Part shown: one piece after another, positions 6,695-51,638 of the stretch
How positions within the stretch are numbered: the first letter of the stretch is position 1
Layout: every line of letters starts with the position of its first letter
Source: Hysterium pulicare CBS 123377
Taxonomy: Eukaryota > Ascomycota > Dothideomycetes > Hysteriales > Hysteriaceae
DNA: 64,000 bases
Assembly (NCBI GenBank): GCA_000467715.1
Contig: AJFK01000423.1
Coordinates: forward strand, 22,184-86,183
Direction of reading: 5' to 3'
Notes under the pieces: generated by a model
Told to the model about the DNA's origin: nothing
Databases searched by the model: none
Seen by the model: only the letters and a program-made list of their open reading frames with translations
Position numbers and translations under genes: made by a program

Positions 6695-9600
6695 TTATAG
6701 ACCTCTCATTAACTCATCAAGCGTAACAGGTTTCCTAACTGCATTCGAGAACCCCTCATGAAAACTGACCCAGACTCTACCCACATCATCAGGGTCCTTC
6801 TCATTCTTCCTCTTCTTCTTCGTGACCTCAACCCCGACAACAGGCTCCAGCTGAGTAGCCACAACTCTCCCAAAGAAATCCCGCTTAACCCCTTTTTCCT
6901 TTTCCCTTGCTTTCTTCGTTTCCTCGTTATCTACTCTCGTGTCTTCCACCTCTTCGGCATCAACTTGACCACCACGCTTCTTTCGAGCTTCTGCATTCAG
7001 CTTCGCACTCTCACGCTTCCATTCCATTTCCAGCACTTGCCTGACTGCAAATCTGACCTTTTCTTCTTTCTTTCCGGCCATCGTTTCAAAAACGCCGATT
7101 TGATCAAGTGGTGGTTCCATTCTGAACACCCATCCACCGCTTCTGCTATTCGGGTCATCAAACTCGACTTTACTTCTTTCAAAACGTACTCCAGTTGCAG
7201 CCATAGCGTCCACTGCCCTCTTTACAAGCAACTTTTCACTTGCTTTCCTGACCGAGGCTGTTGCCGCTGTCCTATTGCTAGTCGTGCCAGTGTTGACGAT
7301 TACAGGTTTAACGTCAGGAGAGAGCAGGCGTAGGATATAAGGGAGAAAGTCCGTAGCAAGGTCTTCAGGAGACCGGAATAAGCGAGTAAGTGGTAAACTT
7401 AATGTCGAATGCAGCCCTGTCAGCTGAGCACGGTTTGATTTCTGCAGTTCAGATGCTGTGTATGGGGCGCTAGAACCAGAGAATGGGGCAGCAACATCAG
7501 CGGTCTGGTCGGCTTTTGTGGAAGCAGAACTACGCATATTTCCGGGTGATGCGAAGAGGTGATGAAAGGCAAGAACGGATTGTGATAGATAGGGAGCAAG
7601 TTCCCACTCTTGGGAACCATGTACAGCTGATGAGAGCGTATCATGAAAGTGTAGCCAGTCGTACGCTGAGGTCGGCTTGCTGAGAAGCGTGTCGTCTTGG
7701 AAACGTTGGCTTGGATAGGATGTGAAGCAGTCTATACGGGATGTGAGCATGTTCCAAAGTATTGATAATAGGTTGGAGCCTTACCCGTTACAATTCTGTC
7801 GCAGTCTCCGCTGGTGTCGACCATTTCTCTCAATCTGTCCATAGCTCGTCGTTTACTCGCTTCAGCTACGCCAACTGCTCCTTTCGTGTCTGAGCGTCCC
7901 GTCTGTTGATAAGTAAAGTTTCCACTCTTAGGGAATCCCGCGCCCTCCTTAAACACACGTTCAACAACTTCTTTCGCTCCTCCTCGACCAAGACTCCTGG
8001 CAGCTCCACCTCCGTGCGATAGATCGCTGAGAATGTTCTCCTCGATCCATCCTCTTGTCAACCTCATAGTGCCAGGAGCGGAGTGCATGGAAGCTCGAAG
8101 TTTCCCTGCAACCCATTCGCCTACCACCATTACACCACGTATGTCGCCCTCGCCGGTCCCACTGCCAGTACCGCCTTCTTTCTTCGTGCTGACACCCCAG
8201 GTAGCCTCGCATAGGCGACGCACGCCGTCGGAATTGCAAGGAATTCCCTCCTTTTCGAAAATTGAATGCATCCGAGACACTATCATGTTGAGCGGCGGCT
8301 TGCGAATATGGATTATTTCTGCAATAGATGTTTGGCGTAAGGGTCGTAAGGAGGGGTGATAGACATCGTTGCAGATTAGAATCAAGGGTCGGAGTAGCCG
8401 AAATCTATCCCCTTTGCGCTTCTTCTTCGTAGGTGCTGCAGAACTTTGTGGCCCAATAGAGCGGGAGTTCTTTTCGTCAAGGTTGATTAGATCAATCAAG
8501 GCTTTGATAAAGCCACCTTCACCACCACCTCCGCTTCCACCAACGACTCCATCTACTTCATCCACCACAACGCACACGGGTTTACCAGCCTTACGAACTT
8601 TGCCAGATGCTGTATTAGTATTTACACCCTTGACGTTCTCAGTGCCGACCATATCTCGGATTCGACCTTTCACAACTTCTCGACTACGTTCATCACTGGC
8701 ATTGATCTCTTGGACCTCGTAACCGGCTTGTCTTGCGCACACGTGCGCCAATGTAGTTTTCCCCAGACCAGGAGGGCCTGTAAGGAGAAGAATTTTGCGG
8801 TGCTTTTGCTCTTCACCATCATCTTGTCCGTGTTTTCCAGGCTTCGCTTTCGGCTTGCTTGAACCGGGGAATACAATTGGGTCCCAGTTCTTCAGCCAAC
8901 GCAGCACTGATCGATGTGTTCGTTCGTCGCCGACTAGGTCTGTAAATTTCCGTGCGCGGTACTTCTCAGTCCACATGAGAGTCCTGTTACTTTTGTTACT
9001 CTGACAGTGGCCTGCAGGTTGCTCAATACTTTCTCTTGCAGTCTCGTTGCTCGCTTCGCGCTCAGCGTTCTTCGCTTCTTTTACCTTCGCAGCATCATCT
9101 ATCAGTTGGTGGATATCGATACCATAATAGCTCTTTCTCGCGTGGCCAGGTTCCGCGACTGATCGGGATGCGATCAACTGCTCGTAGGGGACAGCAGGCT
9201 TCTCGAGTTTCCGTGCAATATACGTGGACTTCCCAGAAGCGGTCACAGCCATCAACGGACGCCTGTTGGTGGCCGAGTAGACTTCTGGCGGGGTCTGGAT
9301 GGGCTTTACTGGCGAGGGAGACTCGAAATAGTGGTCTAAGTCCGCGACTGGTACAGTTTCTGGGTCCACGTCCGTGTCGTCTTGACTTGCTGGTGGAGTA
9401 GTATTGTCCACGGGATTAGGAAAGGACGGGACCTCCTTGATGCTAGTAAACGCCCTCCTCTTGGTGTTGGCAGCCTTCAACGCAGCCAGCTCGTCCTCAT
9501 CATCCGATTCATCCAGAAACCCTCCTATTATCCTCGTTGACTGGTTCGGGCCGACATCTTTCAAGGGGCTCCGAACAACGTCAGGCCTCTTCCTTTTCTT

Positions 9601-10045
9601 TGGTGTTGTTGCATTTGGAGAGGAGCTGGGTGGGTATGTGACCGGCGAAGAGATCATCGGCATGGTGAGACTGGGTGGGGAGGATGGTGGGATTTGGAAA
9701 TCTAGAAAGGTCCTCGAATATGCGTTGGTGGTGCAAGATTTAGAACCTTTTACAGGAGTGTCTATTCCTAATAAGCTTCTGTTCAAATATTCATTCGACG
9801 CGCAGTCTGTAATTACCGATCGCGTAGTCCTCTTCACTCCTAAAAACCTCGGGAATATGCCAGGCCCTATGTTGAATGACTACACCAAGCTCGTTCTTTC
9901 GCACTGTCGCTTCCTCGACCTGCAATTGTAGTGCTTCTAGTTCGTCCGAATGAGAGACAAACGCGTCCTGCAGCTGATCGAGTTCAGAGTGGAGGTGTAT
10001 TGCAGGGTCGAAAGAAGAAGGTAACCTAGGAGATGAGTTGAACAT
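6695..10045 (-). CDS. ctf18: Ctf18, large subunit of the alternative RFC clamp loader
   Basis: Three exons, 9886-10045, 7785-9839 and 6695-7731, give 1083 aa; both introns (9840-9885, 46 nt; 7732-7784, 53 nt) are phase 1 and keep the frame. The AAA+ core begins at LMWTEKYRARKFTDLVGDE, the RFC-like entry motif, near residue 342. Walker A is GPPGLGKTT (about 408-416) and Walker B is VVVDEVDG (about 477-484). A sensor-1-like segment LILICNDVYHPSLRPLR follows. The N-terminal ~330 residues are low complexity, acidic and basic, with a PKKRKRPD stretch that may be a nuclear signal. The C-terminal third (basic, KKKRKN) resembles the Ctf18 tail that binds Dcc1/Ctf8. In other fungi Ctf18-RFC loads or unloads PCNA and supports sister-chromatid cohesion and the replication checkpoint. 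Strong match; exact start less certain. Confidence 0.93.
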
Positions 10046-10628
10046 AAGTCTAGCGTATATGGGAAGAAGTTGTCTTCATCATTGTGAATTCAATGTCGTG
10101 TTAAAGAGTTTCACGGCAGAGTCGCGAACGCGACTTGGAAGCTCGACGCGCAGCTTGTCCGTGCACTGCCAAGCTTCGAGCCCCGGTCACGTGAATACTG
10201 TCTTTGGACCACATCAGTCTTCATGTACCAGCTCAGCCTAAGTAATACATACTAAAAAAGCCTTTTCCACTATTCTTGATTAGACTAAATTGCGCCGGTA
10301 CATCCGGGATCTTGCAGTGTACGACAAAGCCATTAACATTCTTTGCTGGAGCTCAAACCTGTTCGGTAAACAGGGTCAACCCTCTGGGCACATCCCAAAG
10401 CATCAGAATTAACCAGGCCTGTTTATGAGGATTAGCATTAGAAGTAGGTTTGTGTCCTTTATCTTCTGTTGTTGGGTCATAGTCACATGCAATTCTCCAC
10501 TCTGTGGGGCTGAAAAACTGAGGTGTTGGGTAGCTTTGGGCTGAAATTCTGCCCCACCCAAATCGAGTGTTTCTCTGTCTTATTATGTCACTATATTTTA
10601 GTTTTAAAATTTGTCTTTTCCAAATCAA
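10046..10628. other. Intergenic region upstream of ctf18 and of the tRNA gene
   Basis: It holds the ctf18 promoter on the minus strand and the upstream flank of the tRNA on the plus strand. A TATA-like stretch CTATATTTTAGTTTTAAAAT lies about 40 bases before the tRNA; TATA elements at such positions are known for fungal Pol III genes. A 91-codon minus frame (10353-10628) is not supported as a gene. Confidence 0.45.
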
Positions 10629-10653
10629 AGCTGAATGGCGCAGCGGAAGCGCG

Positions 10654-10707
10654 GTAAGTTCATACAGCCTTCGACATAATTAAACGCATGCTGATTGCCT
10701 ACGGCAG
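10654..10707 (+). other. GT-AG intervening sequence in tRNA-iMet, after position 26
   Basis: This 54-nt insert starts with GTAAGT, the best nuclear donor consensus, and ends CTACGGCAG. CTGAT, with its A at 10694, lies 13 nt before the end, in the usual fungal branch-point window. It separates the D-arm from the anticodon stem, between G26 and C27. Removing it restores the standard spacing. It has no run of four T's that would stop Pol III. Confidence 0.75.
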
Positions 10708-10718
10708 CCGGGCTCATA

Positions 10719-10739
10719 GGGACGAAAAAGACACTATAA
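10719..10739 (+). other. Standard tRNA intron at position 37/38
   Basis: A 21-nt insert (GGGACGAAAAAGACACTATAA) sits one base 3' of the CAT anticodon. This is the site used by nuclear tRNA introns cut by the tRNA splicing endonuclease. It lacks GT-AG ends, unlike the two flanking inserts. Confidence 0.8.
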
Positions 10740-10748
10740 ACCCGGAGG

Positions 10749-10806
10749 GTAGGTTCTCATGATATTCTAAGTGTGCACAATTCGTTTAGTTACTAATTTC
10801 GTATAG
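10749..10806 (+). other. GT-AG intervening sequence in tRNA-iMet, variable loop
   Basis: This 58-nt insert starts GTAGGT and ends CGTATAG. It contains TTACTAAT, close to the optimal fungal branch site, with the branch A at 10796, ten bases before the acceptor. It interrupts the variable loop after position 46. After removal the loop reads AGGAC. No T-run of four or more is present. Confidence 0.75.
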
Positions 10807-10837
10807 ACAGCGGATCGAAACCGCTTTCAGCTAATCG

Positions 10838-10844
10838 TTTTTTT
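10838..10844 (+). terminator. Pol III terminator, seven T's
   Basis: A run of seven T's begins four bases after the tRNA discriminator base (10833); a second run of five follows at 10847-10851. The tRNA region 10629-10837 contains no run of four T's, so the full intron-bearing precursor could be made by Pol III. Confidence 0.85.
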
Positions 10845-15798: not shown

Positions 15799-18054
15799 CT
15801 ACTCAAGGCACTTGGCATACTTGAGCATCATTCGGGATATTGCGAGGCTAATATCCCAAGTCTTCCGACAGTCGCACTCGCAAGGCCCGTCATCGTAGAG
15901 TTTACGACCCTTCATTTCGCTCGTCATGACCTCCTCAAGCTTCTTAACATGTGCCAATCGCTGTTCTGGCCTGCCGGTCCCTTTATAAATAGCATCTCTG
16001 GGACGTGGCTCGTCAATGGTCAGCTTGAATTTAACTTTCTTGCCATGAAACCGAGCCACATGCTGAAGGAAACTTCTTTTCATCCTATCTTCGTCGTCAG
16101 AGTCATACTCCTGGTCGTAGTAGGAATATCCAGACCCCCCTGGATTTTGGAGGACATTGTAGGGACCCCGGTTAAATATGGCCTTCGTCCATATTACCGA
16201 GTTCACGGAGAGATGTACGCTTTCGATGTTGGGACAGTTGTGCACCAGCGTGTTGAGAAGCCGACGCCACTGTGACATTGCGGTAGGGGGGACGAAGACG
16301 AGTTTGCGGTCGCCATCACGACTTGGAATGTATACCAAAAAGGGGCACTTGCCTTGATACCCTTCATCTTCCATTCGGAAGAATAATTCGATGTGTTTCA
16401 AGTTGGCAAATTGAGTAGTACGATCATGAAGAAATGCGCGAGCACTTTGAGGACTTCCGAGGAATCGAATCTTCCTTGAATATAGGATTTCCGAGAAATC
16501 CTGATAGACTGCCTGGTTGACGTACATGATATCGAGATTGCGGGCATAGAAGGTATCGTTATCAATCCATGCGTAATACGTCGATAGGATAGCCCTTTCG
16601 AAATTCTCGAACTTCATGTCGAAGCAAGTTGAATTTTCCCTTGCCCCCGTTATGTCATAGCATGTCTCGGATGAGGAATTCCTGGGATGATCCACAACTG
16701 TCAGATCGCCCTTCGGAGAAAGGTAGCGAAGAACCATTTTGCGCGGTTTTCTGTAAAAAGAATAATTTGAAGTCCAGAAGTAATGCAGAACAGATTTTTC
16801 CGAATCCTCGGTGGTCCTTTTGTGCTCATGTCTTGGAAGAGCAAGAGACTTTGGCTCTTTGGGCAACGGCTCCAATTTCTTTTCCCAATACCTTAGGGTC
16901 CTTGGCCTCGCATCTGAGATCACTGAGCTTTGGGGTTGGTTTAGAAATGGGAACGGTCTAGGTGGAACTTCATGCTGCTCTTTCATCGACGTCGACGACA
17001 TCGCGAGGGTGGTTTCTTCAGTTTCCGAGTCCTCTTCATCCGAGTCTATGTCTTCATCATCCGTCCAATCCAGATCCATTCCTTCATGCATACGGAGCTG
17101 CCACATCCGATTCACATGGTGGAATTTCGAAGTTTGATACTTGACAATTTTGATGTTGTCTACGTTCCAGTATCCACGGTCGTAAACTCGATGGCCAAAT
17201 GTGCTTTTAGCAATGTCTCTGTCCTCGATGTTCCCCTTTCGAATAGTGATATCAATGAAATTGAGATTCGAGAACTTAGTATTTTTGATTTTGACTTTTT
17301 CGAAATGAGTATTCTTGAACAGACAGTTCTCGAAGGTAACGTTGGTAAACTTCACGCGGCTCCAAGTGCTTCCTGTTATGACGGTCATTTTTGAGTCGAC
17401 ATTTCGGCATTTGAGATCGGAGATGGCAGAGAAAGATACAGTGAACCGCCCATTTCCAAGGTTCAAAGCGCTGTTGGTCATCAGCGAATCGTCTCATCAT
17501 TTGCGGCTTCAAGCTTACCATTTGCAAGGCGAATCCACATCGAACACGGCCGCCTTCGCATCATTGATCCTTGGGCTCAAGCTCACTGGGATGCAATCCC
17601 TCGGATATCCATGAAACAGCTTTGAGCACTGAGCGAGAGCAACCCGCCAATCATTCAACCACACATTGAAATGCTCTTCGTTATACCGGTCCAACGCCCG
17701 CAAAATCTGCCACGCCATTTCCGGTTTCTCCTTCAGCTCTTCAACGGCGAATGCAGGTACCGATCTCGCCACATCAAGCGCCAAGAAACCTTCAACGGCA
17801 GCTTTGTAGAATTGTTCGATATGTATTGGTGAGTGAGTTCTGAGAGTTTCACCCGTGGGCAATGCTTGAGGGCCGTACAGGCTAAGCACCTCCTCGATCC
17901 AATTTCCGATGGACGGATCGTGGACTCTCCGAGGTGCCTCGGCCCATCTTTCTGGTGATCCTTTCGACCATGAATGGGTTGGGCTGGGCAGGAAACATAG
18001 TCCTCCCTCATCAAGGCATACGTACTCGTCTGCCAGAGGGGTTGCGATGGGCAT
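15799..18054 (-). CDS. Hypothetical protein with pentapeptide-like repeat region
   Basis: Two exons, 17519-18054 and 15799-17470, joined by a 48-nt intron (GTAAGC...CAACAG, phase 2), encode 735 aa. Residues ~195-245 show a run of alternating hydrophobic/polar five-residue steps (FTNVTFENCLFKNTHFEK, IKNTKFSNLNFIDI) like a right-handed beta-helix. A very acidic stretch (DDEDIDSDEEDSETEE) follows, then a long region with F-box-protein-like content (SARAFLHDRTTQFANLKHIELFF). No catalytic motif is recognised. The C-terminus contains CECDC. Such architectures occur in fungal F-box/leucine-rich-repeat-like hypotheticals, but that link is only suggestive. The gene is intact, with phase and length consistent. 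Confidence 0.72.
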
Positions 18055-18366: not shown

Positions 18367-21300
18367 CTACGCTCTAATCCCCTCCAACCTCTTCTCCGCC
18401 TCCTCGATCCTCTTCTCCTCCGCCTCCGCCTCTTCCTCGGCCTTCCTCTTCTCCTCCCTCTCCAATTGATCCGGCCTTCTAATCGCAATATCCTTAGGTC
18501 TATAATCACTAAACATATACTTCAAGACCTTCTCAATAATCCAACAAGCGCCATAATCAAGAATCATAACCCCGGTCAGCATTGTCTTGAAGTCACTCGT
18601 GAACGGCACGAGCTTCAACCTCTGGTTGATTTCGGGAATGAATTCGGTAGCGCAAGAGAAGGCGACGCCGCTGACGACGATCAGACCCCAATACATGCCT
18701 CTGTTTTCGCGGATGGATTCACGGAATGGACGGCCCTGGTAGTTTATAGCGAAGGTGGAGATTTGTTGGATAAGTTGAAGTAGGTAGACGGCGCTGTTGA
18801 GAAGCGATGGCTCGAATTCGCCTTCGAGGTCGATCTCGGCTTTCTTCCTACGAAGACAATTAGCGCTTGATCCATTCAAGATAGTCCATGTATACTTACG
18901 GTTCGATCCTTTGCACAAACCGAGAAACATAAATTAGAGTTGCAATATGAACAGCAAATTGGCCGAGAACCGATCCAACGATGTAGAAGTTGAAGATATT
19001 ATGTTGTGGTCGCTCTTTAGAGAGTTGTTCAACGGGCTAATATACCAAGTCAGTTGGGATGTTCAATAAATTGTGGTTGAAAGCGACATACCTTTGCACG
19101 AGAAATTGAAAGAAAGCAAACACTCATCATCATCCCACTGATGGTGACTTGACCATCTCCAAATTTGATGCCATCAAGGTATAAAACACTCAAACTGTAC
19201 GCGCTGATGAGACAGTTCAATGCAAGAATTTTATACATCTGAATAGTAGCGACTAGAGTACATCTTCCTTGACGGATGATGTTGGGAATTGCAATGACAT
19301 TGGCCAGCTTGCTAGTGAAGGGGGCAGCAACTGAAGCGTCACCAAGTTTAATTGTCGGAGGTTCGCTATCATCAAGCTCTTGCTCCATCATTGTTTGCGT
19401 TAGCTTATCTGCTAATCCAGCAGCAGCTTGTTGAGGATTCTTTGGTGCCTCAGGTTGCTGTTGACTCGGTATTGCAAGGGCAGTCGATCCGTTGGCAGCA
19501 GTTCCATTTGGCAAGGCACCAGCCGGCCCTGCTTTCCTCTCCGCTTGCGCAGCCATGGCTTTTTCGTAATGCGGATTCTGTGGACCAGGAGGATAGAGGT
19601 GCGCAATCATGGGCGGGACAGGTGGAGATGGCTGGTTAAAGCGTTGCATGAGTTGGCATTGCTTTTCGTAGACTTCCTTCATCTTAGTGTTTCTGTAGTG
19701 CTCCGCGATCTTGTCCAGATCCTCTCTTGATCCATTGAGGAGGGCGACACCGATATGAGCTTGCTTAAGGGCACCCACATCATTGGTACCATCGCCGCAC
19801 ATCAGCGTAGTGTAACCGCAGTCTTTCAGGCCGAGCAAGATCTCTTCTTTTTGCTTGGGTGATACACGGGCATAGACCCAGGTATAGCGGAGTAGCTGGC
19901 TCAAAGCTTTTTGACCCTTGAACTTTCCAAGGGCGTATCCAGTCACGCAGATATCCTTTGTCTCTAATAGTTTAGAGTCCAGTAGCTGGGTCGGGTCAAC
20001 AGGAATATTGACCTTGTCATCGACACTTCGCCAGACAAGATTTTTTCCGGAATCATCATTCTCGGGAGCATCAAGGATGAGGCAGTCTCGATCAACGATT
20101 TCCACCTGTCGGGCGACATGTACAGCGGTCAAAGGGTTGTCGCCAGTGATCATGACAACGCGATGGCTACTCTCGTTGAGCATGCGCACAGCTTGGATAG
20201 CATCGTCCTTCAGTGGGCACTGGAGGACAAGGAAACCTGCAAAGTGTAGGTCGCATTCAACTTCCTCTCGCTTCAAATTGTTGATGCGATTCTGGCCCAG
20301 TTCAGAGTCCTGGCTAAGATACTTATATGCGAGGGCGAGAACTCGACCTCCGTTCCTGGTGAAGTATTTGAAAGTCTCCTCATATTTAGGTGGAGTGTCC
20401 ACCATCATCTTTCGGATGGTTTCAGGAGCACCTTTGACACCCACAAAAGTGCTCTTGACCTTTTTCTGAGCTTTCTTATTCGTGACTAGTACGGTTGCAA
20501 CGGAGCTCTGACGCTTAAGTGCCGAAGAGAATTGGAATCGTCGGCGGATCTGAACCAGATCAGGGTGACTGGAACTCGAGGCGCCTTTTGTTAAGGACTG
20601 CGATTTGTTCATTAGAGTGTTGTGAGCACCCAAAGACCAACCAAGGGATGATAGCGTGGCCTTCTCCATAGGCTCACCAACAGTCTCGCCTTCATCCAAT
20701 TTCACCAAGGCGTGCGCAGTGGCCAAGACAAGCGTTGTTTCAGTTCCAACATCACTGACAGCACTGACTTGAGTGTGGGCGCCATCCGGTCCCGTTTTTA
20801 TCCCTTGCTGACCAAGGGATAGACCAGCAATGCCATCAACAACGAGATCTTCGCCGGTTAGAGTCCCAGTCTTATCAAAGCACGCGACATCAACTCGACC
20901 GGCGAATGGAATACGGAACGGTTCTGTACAGAAAATGGCGTATCGGCTGAGCGCTGCGAGAGATGTGTTGACAGCCAGACTCAATTCCATGGGAAGTTCT
21001 GGAGGAACGACACTTGTGATGATCAAAACGCAATCAAGCATCAACTTCGATCGCTTTCGGTCTCTGGCAACGCCCTCCTGCCAGACATACCAGGAAGCAG
21101 CAATAGCGAATAGACACAGGAAAAGGATGAAAAACAATGCCTCAACGTTGTTCGCGGAGACACGCTCGGTCGAGTAGATCATGGTACGGACAAGACTTCC
21201 CTGGCTAGTCTCGAACCCGGTCTTCATAACGACAGCTATCGCGCCCTTATCCGGAGGTGGTGGAAGTCCGGAGGATAATTTACTAACAGCGCCGATGTCG

Positions 21301-22376
21301 TCCTCGCTTGATGTCCCATGGCTGACCTGAAGAACCTTCGTACCCCCGTAGAGGAAGGCGATTTTATCCAGTCCTTCCGGTTCTATCGGAGCTTCTCCAG
21401 GTCGAAGTTGAATGGATTCCTTGAGCACTGGTGTACTTTCTCCAGACAGCATAGCCTCGTTCACGATAGCTGATCCCTCGATTAAGACCATATCGCATGC
21501 TACTCCAGAGTCCTCCTTGGTTCTTCCAACGGAAACCACATCTCCGGGTAGCAACTTATCACTCTGTATCTCCTGCCATTTGTTCTGTCTGTATACGAGA
21601 AGGTCGTAGGGCTTGATGCTCATTCCGCGAAACTCGTTCAATGTCCGTTGTCGCTGCCAGACTACCGTGCTTTCGAATGCAACCAGCATGAAGAGTGTGA
21701 AGAGGGAGTAATACCAGTAGTCATCCAGCATCCAAAGGCCGACGCAGAAAATTTGGAAAACAAAGAATGGGGCGACGGCGTGCTCTTTGAAGAGCTCGGT
21801 GAACGTAGGGACGGGTATATCAAATGAGTTATCGCCATAATGCTGCTGTAGGCGCTCGATTTCAGCTGGAGAAGTAAGACCACGCGATTGCTGGAAGGTC
21901 TTGAGAGGGGGCTTCGGATCGGCATCGAGCGCGTAAGAGAGGGGTGAGAAGGATTTCTTCTCAGGATCGTAGAGGAATCGGCGTTTCTGGAAGAGGAATG
22001 ATAGATTATGCTTCCCTCCTACATTATCACGCTTCAACGGACATATCTCCGCTGAACCTGCGTTCGCCACGGGGATAACCTTGACGAGCTGCGCTGTCCG
22101 GACATCGCTGGCCGTTGTTGAAGTGAACAGAGATTTCAAGTTGACATTCCAATGGGTGGTAAGCCAAATGAGAGCCTGAATCGTGATTATGCCTCCGCTC
22201 CAAACAAATGTCCACTCCTGAGATCCCAGGTGCTTCTCGTATCTTTCGGGGGAAAGATAGAACGCGAAGAAGGCAGGCCAAATTACGAGGAAAGGCCAGA
22301 CGTAAGTATGGAGTGTTAACGGTAATGGATTGTGAAGGCTCGCAGACTGTACCTGCGGATTGTCGACGAGCGGCAT
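18367..22376 (-). CDS. spf1: P5A-type ATPase Spf1, ER membrane helix dislocase
   Basis: Three exons, 19092-22376, 18900-19036 and 18367-18847, give 1300 aa; introns 19037-19091 and 18848-18899 are GT-AG and in phase. The P5A signature PPELPMELS lies at about 458-466, the phosphorylation site CFDKTGTLTGE at 499-509 (Asp501), the actuator loop MLSGEST at ~309, and the hinge CGDGTNDVGALKQAHIGVALL later. Three hydrophobic segments precede the actuator domain (residues ~22-40, 58-75, 200-235). A long Ala/Pro/Gln-rich insert sits in the C-terminal cytoplasmic loop, and the C-terminus is a Glu/Arg-rich helix. In yeast Spf1 removes mis-targeted tail-anchored and signal-anchored helices from the ER membrane. 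Length is slightly above the yeast protein because of the tail. Very secure. Confidence 0.96.
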
Positions 22377-22766
22377 GGTGTTGATGTTGTTTAACGCTGG
22401 TCAACGTCAGGTTTGTACAAATCTGGCCCTGGTCATGTCTTGGAGATTCGCGATTCCGCCACGTTTTTCCGATCCGATGGCGATTTTCCATTCACTAATT
22501 CTTAGAGCCGAAATCTCCCCGTTTACATTCTGAGACTGGTGATGATGCTAATAATAATCCACATAAAATTAAAGCTAGAAGACTTGTTAGTGATACTCGT
22601 CATATTATTATTATGTAAGCTATTCTATCCCTAAAGTTACTGTAGCTAGTAAACTAAAAGCATTTGAAGAGAACAGCATATATCTGATATCAGGAGAAAT
22701 GTTATATTCATCGGTGCATCAGCCATCATTGCAATCTATTATGTTTAAGTCAAGCCCAAGTACCAT
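22377..22766. other. AT-rich intergenic region
   Basis: About 390 bases between the Spf1 start codon and the stop codon of the next minus-strand gene. It is A/T-rich around 22540-22690. No open frame or motif of note. Confidence 0.5.
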
Positions 22767-26006: not shown

Positions 26007-28127
26007 CTATTTTGCTTTATCCTCCCTCAAACTTACGATCTGATTAAGGATGATTTTATCCTCCTTCGTATCTACAGGATCGATGCAGAAATAGGCGGTG
26101 CGCAGTGCTTGGAAGCGGACGAAATCATCAGATGCCCCACTTGGATGCAGGGAATGTTCTTTAATCAACCCCTCGAGGCCCTTCTCGATGACTGCGTTCT
26201 CGAAGATAACCTCACTATGTGGGTTGAGGTCGTTGGCCCAGCCTCCGTTCTTCCAATCAAGTGCGTTGGGAGAGTCGGTCTTGAATAGCGAGTAGTATTG
26301 GCGAGCAACGACCCGAATGGCGGAAGAAACATCCACCCACTGAATGTATGTTTTGGGCTTCTCCCCTGGAGCTTTGGTAGCCCGGATCTCGGTAACGCGG
26401 CCATCTGCATCCTTCGAGAAAGACGTGGCGCGGATAGGGAAAGGAGTATTATAAAGCCCGACAACCTTGTTAGGCGCCAGCCGGAAATAGTCCGGATTAT
26501 CCTCTTCTCTGAAATCGCTTGAGTCGATGTAGACTTCCCGCGTAAATTTAACCTTGCGTTCTCCGGGGATCATGCCTTTGGGATCATAAGGAACCACAAT
26601 GTCCTGGGCATCATCATCCGTAGCGTCTTCGATGACAACTTTCACGGGATCGAGGACTAGCATCTGGCGGGAAACAGTTCTTTCGAGATGTTTACGAATA
26701 GATGATTCAAGTCTGAGAGTCTGAATTTCCGTAAGAGCATCGGTCACACCAAGTTCCTCTACGAACTTGAGCAGTGCCTGAGCTGGAATGCCACGACGTC
26801 GCAAAGCCACCAAAGTATATAGGCGAGGGTCGTCCCAACCTCGGACGCTCGGCGGGATCACTTTAGTCTCGACTGTTCCGTCCGCATTTGTCTTCTCCAC
26901 CGAGGTGCCTTCGACTAACATCTGGATTCGTCGTTTTGAGAGGATAGTGCCTGTGACATTTAGACGTCCGTACCTATGCAAAACACGTTAGTAAGCGGCT
27001 GTCTCCATTGCATAGGGCACTTACTCTCGTTGCATTGGGCCCTTCTCGTCTGACTTTGGATCCTTGAAATCCAATGCTTCAAGCAGCCAATCGTATGATA
27101 TACGGGATTGCTGGAATTCAGTTGTGCACATCGAATGGGATATTTCTTCGAATGCATCACATAGACAATGCGTGAAATCGTATGTTGGGTAGATTCTCCA
27201 CTTATCACCCGTCCGATGGTGGTGATTCTTCTCGACAATACGATATGCTGGGAGATCCCACATCTGCGGGTTGCCCTCATTGGGATCCGTTAAGCTTTGC
27301 TTCATGCGTAGGTATGCCTCCCCAGGTTTGTATTTGCCGTCACGCATCGCTCGAAACTCAGCTAGTGATTCATCGACAGGTCTCGTGCGGTGTTCGCAGC
27401 CATATCGAGGGCCACGGTTGTCTGGCCCACCTCGCTGGCGATTTACTTCTTCTCCTAGGTTGATTGTTAGCCAAAGTCATTGAATAACCTCACCTGTTTA
27501 CTTACTCGAGCAATGGCAGACGTAAGCCTTGTCCCGACTGATCAGCTCCTCCGCAAGCTCATACAAGCGGTCGAAATGATCGCTACTATAAGTAATCTTG
27601 TATGGCTCAAAGCCTAACCACTTTACTATTTCCAGTATTGAAGTGAAGAATATTTCGTCCTCCTTTGCCGGATTGGTGTCATCGTAGCGTAGAAAGCAGA
27701 CGCCGTCGTGGTGTTTGGCGAATCCAAAGTTCACGGCAATAGCTTTACAGTGACCAATGTGTAAGAAGCCATTGGGCTCGGGAGGGAACCGTGAGCGAAC
27801 CTGCTTGACTGGCTTTTCTTCGTACACGCGTTTGAGCCATCCTTCTGCGAAGACGTTGGCAGGAGTGGAGGTTGCAGGTGTTGGGACAGCATTCTCTTTA
27901 GGTCGAATGGCATATTCTGCTTTTTTGGCAGCCTTTTCGGCCTTCTTTCTTGCTTTCTCAAGGGCTCGCTTTGAAGGGCCCTTATCCTCGGTCGCAGGAT
28001 CGGGAGCGGGTGTGGCCATGGTGTCGTGTGTGAGTCTGAAGAATTTCGGCGGGGAGATGATCGAGGGGTTGTTGTTTGAACATGACTCAATTCGAGTCTC
28101 ACTAGCCACTGTGGCTGTGCCCGCCAT
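26007..28127 (-). CDS. gln4: Cytosolic glutaminyl-tRNA synthetase (GlnRS)
   Basis: Three exons, 27506-28127, 27025-27454 and 26007-26973, give 672 aa; introns 27455-27505 and 26974-27024 are both 51 nt and keep phase. [25 protein letters not shown] contains the class I HIGH motif, and [13 protein letters not shown] is the KMSKS equivalent. [10 protein letters not shown] and the [23 protein letters not shown] block are GlnRS/GluRS hallmarks; [14 protein letters not shown] favours GlnRS. The anticodon-binding beta-barrels fill the last exon. A Lys/Ala-rich appended helix ([14 protein letters not shown]) precedes the catalytic core. Two starts are possible: Met at 28127, or Met at 28019 (636 aa, [14 protein letters not shown]), which looks more like a normal eukaryotic N-terminus. 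It charges tRNA-Gln in the cytosol. Very secure. Confidence 0.95.
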
Positions 28128-35806: not shown

Positions 35807-38588
35807 TCAAGGAAGTCCGGAATATCTCTGCGACGGTGGGAGAGTGGTAAGCTGGTAAGGGAAGGCAACATTCATCGGCATCCCATCAACCTTGCGCAGG
35901 AATTCCCGAACTCTTCCGACCTCGACCTCGCCCACAGGCACGGGTTCGCTCTCCAGCGCCTGCACAAGCCCGTCTAAGACCTCGTCGACTTTCGTTTCAT
36001 CCACGCTCGTACAAAGACTAACGACTTTTCTGTACATGGTCTCCAACTCCCCATCTTTCTGCTTCAATGCCTTACTCCTGGTCGCGAGCGCAACATTGTT
36101 CTTGACGTAACTCTCTAGTCTTTGTCTCAGCACAACAGGAGATGGCAGATGCGACAGATACTGCTGGTTCTGTGGGGAGAGTGAAGATAGGTCGAGGGAG
36201 GCGGACGAAGAGGATGAGAAAGTCAGGAAATCACGACCAGACGATGAAGGAGGGATGTGGTGCATCCTCTGTCTTGCGGAATCGGGAAGTTCTTCAGGGC
36301 GTACGATGACACCAGCACCATCTCTATCTGCGTCACCAAGTCTTACTTTGCCTGCCCCATGCAAAGAACTGGGATCTGTGACGCTGAGAGCGCGCCTTTG
36401 AGTATCGAGCCAGCGACGGAGATTTGTAATGCGTTGGGCACGGTCCGTACGAGCGCGGAGACGAGTGCGTAGGGTGTCTAGACGTGCAGACTCACTTTTC
36501 TGGAGGGCAGAGAGTTGAGCGATGGATTCGTTGATGCGGTCGATGGTATCTTGTTTCAGGCGTGCTTCTTGGGTGTATTGCACCGTCACTGATTGGAGAA
36601 AGGAGGATAAGACTAGATCGAGAACGTTAGAACTTCGAAAGCAAGATTTGAAACTGGAGCCCACTTACGTGGTTGAATCTCTCTACTGGTCTCATCAACC
36701 TTGCTTAACGGTGCTTTACTCTTGCTGGGTGAACTCATCTGCGTCGCTGGGAGCACTTCAGCCCCCTCCAAGTCATTTCCGACGCCGAAATCTATCGGCC
36801 GCATGCCCTTGTGGTTCGGTATTGTTGGATCGGCTTGCACTTCCATCAACTGAGAGATGATGTTCCGGTTCCCGATTCTGGCTGCGAGATTTAGAGCTGT
36901 ATTGCCAGCCTTGTCCCTGGCGTTGACCATCTCTTGCATGAACCTCATCAGGCCTATTGGCTTAGGTATATTGCCATTGCCCTCGAATGAGCTCGATTGA
37001 CTGCTACTGCTATTGCTTCGAACGAGGTATTCGAGAAGAGCTTCCAAGTAATATTTACTGGAAGCAGCACGACCTTTGATAGCGCAAGTTACTGCAATGT
37101 GATGCAGAATAGTACGGCCCTGCGCATCTCTCAGTTCAATAAGGGGTGCTAATATTTCCAAGGTCTCTGGGAAACAGCTGTGATCCAAGCTGTTGTTTAC
37201 TGAAACGGCGCTCATAAGTGGCGTTTGCCCAGCGGCATTTCCTCGGAACATGTTTGCTCCTTTTGAGACAAGTAACCGCATCAGCGAAACGCGTGCAAGG
37301 GTAGCCGCCCAATGCAATGCGGTGTTAGCCGTGTTGTCGATTGGCATGTCTAGATCGGAACCGGAGAGATGGACTATTGCTGGGTGGTTGCTGAAGTCTG
37401 TTCGAGATTGATCGGCGAAGAGATCAGTCAACATGGCTTGTTTCTCTTCAGCAACTTTCTCACTAGGTGGAGGAAGGGGTGCGAAAGCAGTTGGAACATC
37501 GCCATCAGCAGTTGAAAAGTTGTGGCCCGTTTGGTAGAAGGATTCATTTGGCTCTGTTGGCGACCCATCACGCATGGATATGTCCAGTCCGTTGGGCTGA
37601 GAGAAGGAGTCTTCCTGGGACGGTCTCATTCGCTTCCTTGGGGGTTCTTGTGAATCGGCTGCACCATCCATATTTTCGCTAAATTGCCCAGTACCATATG
37701 CAGAATCGGTAGCGCCGTTCGCTCCGAAGCTGCGCTCGGATGCAAGGCTTGGAATACTTTGTTGGCTGCTTGCTCGGAAAGATTCTTGGCTTCCAATGGG
37801 TCCTTGGGATGGTCGTCCCATCGATCGCCTTTGAGAAGAGCTTCCCGGCCGAGGTGCTGGGGAGTTCATCCGGGCGACTTTGTTCATAGCAGCAAGAGCA
37901 TTGGTGGCTGTGGAGGATATATTGGAGAAGAAGGTTCCACCAACATTCTGGTTTGTGTTTCGACCATCCATACTTTGCGTATAGAACCTTTTTCTGTTTG
38001 CCGCCATGGCTTGCTCCTTGGTAGGGGTCTCAATTCCTTGTCCAGAGTTCCCATCATTGCTCACGTCATAGTCCAACAGAGGTCTGAGAATATCCTCCAC
38101 GCCATATTGGCGACAGAACTCCCTTCCTCGGCGATAATTTATCCAGGTGCCTTGGTATTTTCCGTAGCCGCCTTGAACCTTCTCGTGCTCTCCGGTCAAT
38201 ATCTCTTTCTCCAGCACCTTTGTGCGTTTGCCTTTATCGACACCGGCGACCTTGAGGATTTGGGTAGCATTCAGCCAGGAGTCGGAACGTCTTCTCATGA
38301 CAGCGATACGGTTGACTTCCATTTCGTAGACGGAGACGCCCGAATAAACAGCCTTGGCGAAGCCATGTCAGTAATGTGGGGTTTCAGAGAGCGCATGTGT
38401 CCGCGCAAACATACAGTATAGATCTGAGGCTTCTCCATAGGATGCGGAGTGTAGCCATTGACGTCTGAAAAACTCCTGTTGAAGGACGACGGGGCCATCA
38501 TGCCGTGTGACGAATTGCCGTACATGGCGGGCTGGGACGAAGCACCAGAAGGGAATGAGGATGCTAGGGACGAGCGCGCGACTTGCAT
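35807..38588 (-). CDS. mbp1: APSES/ankyrin cell-cycle transcription factor Mbp1
   Basis: Three exons, 38415-38588, 36669-38352 and 35807-36612, give 887 aa; introns 38353-38414 and 36613-36668 keep phase. The KilA-N/APSES DNA-binding domain spans about residues 55-150: VYEMEVNRIAVMRRRSDSWLNATQI, then LEKEILTGEHEKVQGGYGKYQGTWI and a GREFCRQYGVEDILRPLLDYD end. A PPRKRMRP sequence near residue 297 may be a nuclear signal. Two ankyrin blocks follow (NTALHWAATLARVSLMRLLV, about 400; GNTALNLAARIGNRNII, about 565), then a C-terminal coiled-coil region that in yeast pairs with Swi6. Mbp1-type factors drive G1/S transcription through MCB (ACGCGT) sites. It is divergently arranged with the LYR gene at 39020. 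Secure family, Mbp1 rather than Swi4 inferred from the DNA-binding domain. Confidence 0.93.
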
Positions 38589-49583: not shown

Positions 49584-51638
49584 ATGGTCGGCCCACGCAA
49601 AGCTGCTTTTGCCGAGGAGAGTGCGGAAGTCGAGGTTCTATTCGCAAACATGGAGAAGATGAAGAGCTTGACCAAGAAGATTCAAGGCTCGTTGAATCGA
49701 CTGGAGACCAGCGGAAAGAGCGTGCAGGATGCAATAGGTCCCATCTACGGCAACACCCAGAAGCTCCAGACAACCAACTCAAGCAAGTATCCCCACATCG
49801 AATGCCATGGAATGGTCACTAACTGCATGCCTCAGACGTCGACGGAATTATCGATGCAATCAGTCGGATCCAAGAGCCTCTTGACCAAAGGAATAGAGAG
49901 GAGCGCATTATTCGGGAAGGGTATACTTTGCTCTCTTTGATCATTCTAGTCAAGTATACTGACGCTTGGCAGCCCCAGAAAGATACCTCTCCAGGATTAC
50001 CTGGCGTCGCTCGACCGCACCACTCTCGCTCTCAGTGACCTCAAGCGTTCCAATCTACGATCGAACCAGCAAGCCGTTGTTGAGTTGAGTTCACTGCTGA
50101 AACTTGGAACAAAACAATTGGAGGACGTGTTTCGGGAGATACTACGCGACGGATCCCGGCAAGCGGTGGAGCCTTTAGAATACGTTGCTAAGCGTAAGTA
50201 AGCATGCTGTTAGCAACTTTGGTCCTCGCTGACTGTCACAGAAAAACCGTTTCCTCTTATATCTCAGGACGATCTGTCTACTTTGAGGCTCATCAACAGC
50301 CATGTGTCAGCATCATTCGCACAGATATCTCAGACCGACGTTCGAGAAACACCTACGCATAGGATATACAAGGAAATCCGGGGAGAATATCTTGATAGCT
50401 CGTTACGCAATTTGGCTGCCGCCTCTGTCGCTACCGCGAGAAAAGTCTCGGCGGATGCAATCTACAAACAAGGAACAAATGGTATTGGGACTTACGCTCA
50501 AGGCATGGAAGGACTATTTCGGGCCGAGTACGAGAACGTATGCCCTATCTTCGCCCGAGATGAATGGGGAATTGTATATGCATCTACGTGTCAAGGCGCA
50601 CTTGATGAGTTCACGAGAACACTGCGCGAACTCAACACGCATATCCAGAGGAATCTTATGACAGACTGCTTCCTTGGATACGAGATCATCGACATTGTAT
50701 CAAATTTATCAATCCGACTGGAAAGCAAAACCGGAGAACTCAAACGTCCTATTGTCGACTCCCTGATACCCATTCGTGAGACGTCAAAATTATCGCTTTC
50801 GAAACTTTTAGAAGATACGAGGTCACGTATCCAAACATTGGTCGCGCTCCCTCCAGATGGCGCGACTGTTCCTGTCACGAATGACTGTATGACCAAATTA
50901 CAAACTATGACCAGCTATCTCTCTCCGCTGTCATCTATCATGACATCTATGGGCGATGGAGGATGGTCTTCCAACTCGGCCGCAGCTTCCTCGACATCAT
51001 TGCCGTCGCTGAAGTCATTTGACGTGGGCGCAGATGGCAAACTTTTGTTCGCACATTACGCCTCAGATATACTAGAGACACTGCTATTCAACCTGGAGAC
51101 AAAAGCTCGTGTGCTTCTGAAGGGCAAGAACTTACAGGGCGTTTTCATCGCGAACAATGTGGCCGTCATTGATAGAGGGATCCGGTCGTCGGAGCTTCAG
51201 CCTCTGATGGCCAGTTATTCAAACAAACTTGAAAATTGGCGCAAGAAGGGTACGGCAATGTATCTCGAAGCATGGCGAGAACCATCCGGCCATCTGCTTG
51301 ATGTACAGTACACCAATCGCAGCGGAAGGCCTCAGAGCGGCAGCACAAACACGACAGACTCTACAGCCATTGTCAAAAGCCTGAATTCGAAAGACAAAGA
51401 TGCGATCAAAGAGAAGTACAAGAACTTCAACCTGAGCTTCGACGACCTTGTTGCGCGACACAAGTCGTACAAAATGGAACGAGAAGTACGATCGCAACTG
51501 GCACGAGAGGTGCAGACCATCATCGAGCCCTTATATGGCCGATTCTGGGACCGGTATCATGAGATTGACAAAGGGAAGGGTAAATATGTCAAGTACGACA
51601 AGAGCCAGTTGGGGGCGTCGCTGGCCAGTCTGGCATAA
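49584..51638 (+). CDS. exo70: Exocyst subunit Exo70
   Basis: Four exons, 49584-49782, 49836-49920, 49973-50193 and 50242-51638, give 633 aa. Intron 1 (49783-49835) is GC-AG (GCAAGT, branch ACTAAC, CTCAG); GT at the next possible site breaks the frame. Introns 2 and 3 are GT-AG. The N-terminus is helical ([20 protein letters not shown]) and the rest is the helical-rod Exo70 fold. Hallmarks are [20 protein letters not shown], the C-terminal [18 protein letters not shown] and the lipid-binding end [17 protein letters not shown]. Exo70 tethers secretory vesicles to the plasma membrane with Exo84/Sec6/Sec8 and binds PI(4,5)P2 and Rho GTPases; in hyphae it acts at tips and septa. Length is typical. 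Very secure. Confidence 0.95.

Follow-up and report, generated by a model that had tools for sequence, protein, structure and literature searches.

Introns in tRNA and U6 genes

Eukaryotic tRNA genes are held to be limited to one intron (PMC8450103). The exceptions in algae and nucleomorphs are of another type. PMC4090602 describes Cyanidioschyzon merolae, nucleomorphs and the Thermoproteales as having several introns per tRNA gene, D and T arms included, and in archaea and C. merolae these introns rest on the bulge-helix-bulge motif and the tRNA endonuclease. An mRNA-type intron is found in another short gene: fission yeast has a spliced one in its U6 snRNA gene (PMC10484740). A sequence-only reading of the present DNA had also pointed to mRNA-type introns in some fungal U6 genes, which are Pol III products as well. 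The reference list of the same paper names a study on impaired splicing of the U6 precursor in pre-mRNA splicing mutants.

The split tRNA genes of Hysterium pulicare described here resemble the fission yeast U6 gene in that a short non-coding RNA gene of Pol III type contains an intron that is presumably spliceosomal. For so short an RNA, the U6 intron can be considered a precedent. U6, however, is part of the spliceosome, whereas the hosts here are tRNAs with up to two GT-AG introns each plus a tRNA intron at 37/38. Several introns per gene, D and T arms included, are also what these genes share with C. merolae, nucleomorphs and Thermoproteales; their outer inserts, in contrast, show GT-AG ends and a branch motif and no full bulge-helix-bulge. 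The canonical eukaryotic tRNA intron at 37/38 is present in all six genes, with 14-34 nt, and differs from the outer inserts in having neither GT-AG ends nor a branch motif. Koehrer and others reportedly described, in the EMBO J in 1990, a yeast test construct in which a pre-mRNA intron was spliced out of a tRNA precursor by the spliceosome. From that construct it would follow that the spliceosome can accept a tRNA body as substrate; it was artificial, while the genes here are natural.

A search of the open literature by title and start of abstract yielded, among the matches listed, no report on spliceosomal introns in tRNA genes, and the accessible parts of PMC4090602, PMC4033280 and PMC8450103 contain no word beginning with "spliceosom". 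An earlier report may exist elsewhere, in subscription papers or preprints.

The initiator tRNA gene and its three inserts

The 64-kb stretch of DNA analysed here, the window, contains on its plus strand an intact initiator tRNA-Met(CAU) gene of four exons and three inserts (10629..10833), as judged from sequence, ARAGORN and stem pairing. Exon 1 (10629..10653, positions 1-26) is followed, directly after position 26, by the 54-nt GT-AG intron A (10654..10707; GTAAGT...CTGAT...GGCAG). Exon 2 (10708..10718, positions 27-37) contains the anticodon CAT and ends at a tRNA intron of 21 nt at the 37/38 site (10719..10739), which lacks GT-AG. Exon 3 (10740..10748, positions 38-46) leads into the 58-nt GT-AG intron B in the variable loop (10749..10806; GTAGGT...CTAAT...TATAG), and exon 4 (10807..10833) supplies the end of the variable loop, the T arm and the 3' strand of the acceptor stem. 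A motif search located the branch-like words CTGAT in intron A (10691..10695) and CTAAT in intron B (10793..10797), with the A 13 and 10 nt from the respective intron end. What we take to be the A box (10636..10646, positions 8-19) is unbroken in this gene, and the presumed B box (10812..10822, positions 52-62) reads GGATCGAAACC, a word that was also followed through the genome (see below). A run of seven T, resembling a Pol III terminator, stands at 10838..10844, and TATAT is found 37 nt upstream of the gene (10592..10596).

The sequence-only reading had claimed a perfect cloverleaf for this gene, and its coordinates proved exact to the base: excision of 10654-10707, 10719-10739 and 10749-10806 leaves 72 nt, which ARAGORN, a tRNA finder of the kind it had proposed for the purpose, calls tRNA-Met(CAT); the unspliced gene is called tRNA-Lys. 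Its placing of the middle insert at 37/38, the GT starts, AG ends and branch-like words of the outer ones, and the fit to Pol III (TTTT is absent from introns and exons, the latter inspected by eye) likewise held. As to the sites of the outer inserts, the one after position 26 stands and so does the one in the variable loop, but the exact ends of intron B rest on the GT-AG match, because the cloverleaf permits 13 registers there. Both initiator genes of this genome (the second is described below) show A1:U72, the A54/A60 T loop, the CAU anticodon and a full cloverleaf, the first three of which we take to be identity elements of eukaryotic initiator tRNA. In the window gene A1:T72 and A54/A60 can be read off the sequence; the acceptor stem has seven pairs and the T stem five.

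A scan of both strands of the window for split tRNAs (acceptor pairing, D arm, T loop, span of at most 420 nt) matched the initiator gene only; ten shuffled windows gave four matches. ARAGORN with bacterial settings and Rfam at gathering thresholds found no match in the window, which is to be expected of a split gene and is no counter-evidence. The joined 72-mer, used as a query, found no match and missed even the split gene itself, so that the empty answer of this search is uninformative. The architecture is not a product of chance, because the cloverleaf restricts the registers of intron A (one mature sequence and two registers are permitted, one of them GT..AG) and because this layout recurs in another copy in the genome. 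The observation as such, an initiator gene with two GT-AG inserts and one at 37/38, is confirmed.

Pfam identifies as neighbours in the window an AAA ATPase with a Rad17-like P loop (7732-9879), a P5A ATPase (19050-22400), part of a Glu/Gln tRNA synthetase (26007-26987), a KilA-N ankyrin protein (36613-38367) and Exo70 (50214-51638).

A second initiator gene, and none without inserts

The genome is available as a draft assembly of 37.2 Mb in 596 contigs. A search for other initiator genes, as proposed in the sequence-only reading, revealed one more, on contig C41 (L009), with three inserts in places identical to those of the window gene. Hence, the site after position 26 and the one in the variable loop are common to both initiators; the former is also used in a tRNA-Thr(UGU) gene.

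The exons of the two initiator genes agree at 24/25, 11/11, 9/9 and 22/27 positions, and their differences keep the pairing, both in the acceptor stem (AGCTGAA/TTCAGCT versus AGCTGAG/CTCAGCT) and in the T stem (AGCGG/CCGCT versus CTCGG/CCGAG). The 37/38 intron is nearly unchanged: 21 of 22 positions agree and one A is different. Over their full length, the first and the third insert, both GT-AG, agree at 41/58 and 35/58 positions, with shuffled means of 33.1 and 33.2. Without the first 6 and the last 16 nt the figures are 22/36 and 19/36 versus shuffled means of 20.5 and 19.6. The interiors are thus about at the level of shuffled sequence, and conservation in the GT-AG introns of the initiators therefore resides mainly at the splice and branch ends.

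An uninterrupted initiator gene was not found in the draft assembly by means of the GGATCGAAACC places, the D-arm pattern or the exon joints, one joint match (C488:48486) being left unread. All 21 genomic places of GGATCGAAACC were fetched and scanned, and a cloverleaf emerged only at the two known initiator genes. The D-arm pattern with up to two mismatches occurs at 139 places (control 101), of which 100 were listed and 30 retrieved; it is matched without any mismatch at two places, the two initiator genes. The spliced joint of exons 3 and 4 has no match in the genome within three mismatches. The joint of exons 1 and 2 has two at three mismatches (control 1), the exon-intron border of the window gene itself and C488:48486.

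Could the split genes then be decaying extra copies, with the mature tRNAs coming from intact genes that are absent from the draft or were missed by the searches? The assembly is indeed a draft in 596 contigs, and the tRNA set found in it is incomplete. Yet both initiator genes found have the inserts, the scan of the 21 GGATCGAAACC places led to these two only, and an intact joint of exons 3 and 4 did not turn up. Moreover, the cloverleaves of all six split genes are intact, stem changes are compensated, and intron ends are kept while the interiors diverge. We consider this explanation quite improbable, and the same holds for the nonfunctional extra copy that the sequence-only reading had offered as its second option: the only other initiator found has the same three inserts and compensated stems.

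GT-AG inserts in elongator tRNA genes

Reading of Rfam tRNA matches, A-box places and B-box places revealed four more genes of this kind. A tRNA-Gly(UCC) gene on C578 has a GT-AG insert of 48 nt in the variable loop. The tRNA-Thr(UGU) gene on C19 has two, one of 47 nt after position 26 and one of 50 nt inside the T stem. In a tRNA-Ile(UAU) gene on C433 an insert of 52 nt lies in the T loop and splits the B box. A tRNA-Val(CAC) gene on C160 has one of 51 nt that interrupts the A box within the D stem and one of 57 nt between positions 24 and 25. Together with the two initiators this makes ten GT-AG inserts of 47-58 nt in six genes. All six also have the insert at 37/38; in five of them the cloverleaf alone would permit other places in the loop as well. 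The feature is present in several genes and is conserved between the two initiator copies.

ARAGORN called all six spliced forms tRNAs with the expected anticodons. Of the unspliced forms it missed three, misnamed both initiators and named one rightly; with only the GT-AG introns removed, three were named rightly and three wrongly. Broken stems and lost invariant bases, by which tRNA pseudogenes are recognised, were not seen: all six spliced forms pass, and the stem changes of the initiators are compensated.

GT-AG introns are found in 6 of the 26 tRNA genes or matches that were fully read (20 Rfam matches, the two initiators, Thr, Ile, Val and a Glu gene in L090 parsed by eye), a biased sample because the Rfam search scored 63 of 1229 candidates and favours uninterrupted genes. 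The B-box pattern occurs at 84 places versus 145 in the control; all of them were read at least in part, 39 by 81-91 nt only. These counts, like those of the D-arm pattern, are uninformative by themselves, and the genes were recognised by reading. An A box combined with GTRNGT occurs at 12 places, no excess over the 12 of the reversed control; three are known genes and nine were left unread. GGTTCAANYCC is found at 138 places (control 122), the known Thr gene among them.

Several further loci were left out of the counts: L162, L161, L140 and L163, of which 81-91 nt each were read, as well as L089 and the family L050, L120, L153 and L164. At L162 (C478:63420-63510, minus strand, parsed by eye) the 3' part of a tRNA-Ile(AAT) stands directly behind ..CACTAACAAGTCTCGCAG, with CTAAC..AG; this gene is probably the seventh of its kind, and its GT-AG intron would end near position 21/22. 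L161 (C478:22515-22600, plus) shows the 3' part of a Gln-like tRNA, with the acceptor strand CACGACC and then a T-run, behind ..CACTAACGGTTCCAG, and CTAAC..AG precedes it. L140 (C244:935-1020, plus) and L163 (C493:31490-31575, minus) have T arms with five pairs and are perhaps tRNAs with a long variable arm. About 100 nt behind the tRNA-Thr(UGU) gene there is a second 3' end (L022, C19 ~17880-17999, minus), consisting of CTAAC..TTTAG, GGTTCGATTCC and, later, a T-run. The last exon, with the end of its intron, may have been duplicated here and then have decayed. The family L050, L120, L153 and L164 (on C129, C63, C387 and C497) is tRNA-like and shares GAGACCCAGGTTCRATTCCTGYGCGCCG, with differing anticodon-loop sequences and lengths; the short stretches read behind its members contain no T-run, and L050 is among the 20 Rfam matches. 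L089 (C493:13828, minus) is tRNA-like, too, with a good acceptor and D arm, a T stem in which only three of five pairs form and, near the anticodon, a long insert. GT-AG introns do not explain this sequence.

Splice signals, registers and the bulge-helix-bulge

All ten outer inserts start with GT and end with AG. The 5' end reads GTRNGT in nine and GTAAGA in one; the branch motif is CTRAY in nine and CTAAG in one, and its A lies 9-13 nt before the intron end. For comparison, 21 mRNA introns were predicted in the window by a purpose-written gene finder (GT, AG, length, codon usage), several of them probably wrong. A 5' splice site matrix was derived from these 21, which had been chosen without regard to 5' context beyond GT or to any branch motif. 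With this matrix the ten inserts score 5.3-8.6 and the predicted host introns -0.1 to 8.6; 13 of the latter have CTRAY at 8-20 nt. The claimed likeness to the mRNA introns of neighbouring genes is thereby supported, since 5' scores and branch distances fall within the range of the predicted window introns. The six 37/38 inserts all score negative and have neither GTRNGT nor the branch motif. CTRAY is found in 5.9% of 5367 random GT..AG stretches taken from the window with a length of 47-58 nt, and CTRAY plus GTRNGT in 0.41%.

In a register test each insert was slid by up to 12 nt, GT-AG being ignored, and excisions were kept if their cloverleaf score at least equalled that of the chosen one. 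The numbers of registers so allowed were 2, 13, 2, 11, 15, 2, 2, 3, 3 and 2. Nine inserts had one GT..AG register among them, and one had two. The chance that all ten sets hold GT..AG is ~5e-19 at 1/256 per register, a figure to be read with the proviso that the choice of exons took GT-AG into account. The ends of the three variable-loop inserts are left unfixed by the cloverleaf alone, and for both Val inserts the crude cloverleaf score favours other registers by 1-2 points.

Alternatively, GT-AG might be incidental, and a relaxed tRNA splicing endonuclease might excise the outer inserts as ectopic tRNA introns of the sort found in C. merolae and nucleomorphs. Inserts in D and T arms are known from these organisms, according to PMC4090602, and intron 1 of Val has a complete central helix of four pairs, with 1/3 and 2/3 flanking pairs. 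The fold of the inserts, which the sequence-only reading had wished to see checked, speaks against it. A full bulge-helix-bulge (a central helix of 4 pairs, 3-nt bulges and flanking helices at both cuts) was found in 0/10 GT-AG inserts; nine have scores that are ordinary compared with shuffles (0.21 to 0.99), and one reached P = 0.015, uncorrected. This test covers the archaeal-type motif only, since the six 37/38 introns lack it too. Nor would the ectopic introns account for GT, AG and branch signals in all ten inserts. We regard this alternative as very unlikely, and the other excision route that had been the third option of the sequence-only reading is unsupported. Spliceosomal origin is, on these features, by far the best fit for the GT-AG inserts. 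Transposition of an intron from one tRNA gene to another was considered and rejected: words of 9 or more bases do not recur among the ten introns, and the three 8-mers that do are splice or branch signals.

Transcription of the split genes

The genes show the features of Pol III tRNA genes, i.e., A and B boxes and a T-run terminator. T-runs of 5-9 start within 14 nt behind all six split genes, and a run of at least four is found in each of the 14 ordinary tRNA genes used for comparison. TATA-like words precede 6/6 split and 10/14 ordinary genes (16/20 in total) at a distance of up to 60 nt. TTTT occurs in one of the ten GT-AG introns and TTTTT in none; compared with 5/13 mRNA introns (13 of the 21 predicted ones, picked by eye) the difference is in the direction expected for avoidance of T-runs, but not significant (P = 0.18). 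The promoter boxes are whole in four genes, while an insert splits the A box of Val(CAC) and the B box of Ile(UAU).

Splicing by the spliceosome normally goes together with transcription by Pol II. Alternatively, Pol II could make capped transcripts that are spliced as mRNA, the tRNA then being processed from the spliced RNA, and the two split promoter boxes would suit such a pathway as well. The T-runs and upstream TATA-like words of the split genes, which largely resemble those of the 14 ordinary ones, argue against it and make it most unlikely. Transcription by Pol III would be the reading in line with these signals.

A tRNA that probably needs two splicing machines

Very probably, these are working Pol III tRNA genes from which the spliceosome removes the GT-AG introns, and tRNA endonuclease and ligase the 37/38 intron. 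Pol III would transcribe them from their internal promoters to the T-run. The major spliceosome would excise the GT-AG introns of 47-58 nt, anywhere from D stem to T loop, via a branch-site lariat, and tRNA splicing endonuclease and ligase would take out the short 37/38 intron. The full cloverleaf would form only after both removals and then be trimmed, modified and charged; initiator tRNA supply and cytosolic translation would accordingly depend on both machines. On the view given in PMC4033280, the tRNA endonuclease takes its measurements from the mature fold. As the full cloverleaf is impossible before the outer introns are gone, the spliceosome is most likely the first to act. Gene anatomy, the agreement between the two initiator copies and the splice and branch signals are seen in the sequence; transcription by Pol III, removal of the GT-AG introns by the spliceosome and of the 37/38 intron by endonuclease and ligase are inferred from known pathways, and so is the order of the steps from the folding argument. 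The first option of the sequence-only reading, a tRNA in need of both spliceosome and tRNA endonuclease, fits the features, and five more genes follow the same pattern.

Some observations do not favour this proposal. Apart from the split promoter boxes of Val and Ile, U6 in the same genome is represented by five full-length matches of 97-107 nt (C383, C300, C342, C6, C411), none of which points to an intron. The non-significant scarcity of T-runs in the GT-AG introns, the choice of exons with GT-AG in view, the Val registers, the 3/6 wrong names by ARAGORN after removal of the GT-AG introns alone and the unread joint match on C488 also have to be listed here.

It is likely, all the same, that all initiator tRNA of this fungus and, probably through their sole genes, several elongator tRNAs need both spliceosome and tRNA endonuclease, that spliceosomal introns have spread through its tRNA gene set, even into promoter boxes, and that general translation depends directly on the capacity for pre-mRNA splicing. 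A practical consequence is that tRNA finders may miss or misname such genes, as ARAGORN did. If the proposal is true, spliceosome-dependent tRNA genes would break the division of labour between two RNA splicing systems, and spliceosomal introns would be able to invade very short, structured Pol III-type genes. The supply of initiator tRNA would then depend on splicing capacity.
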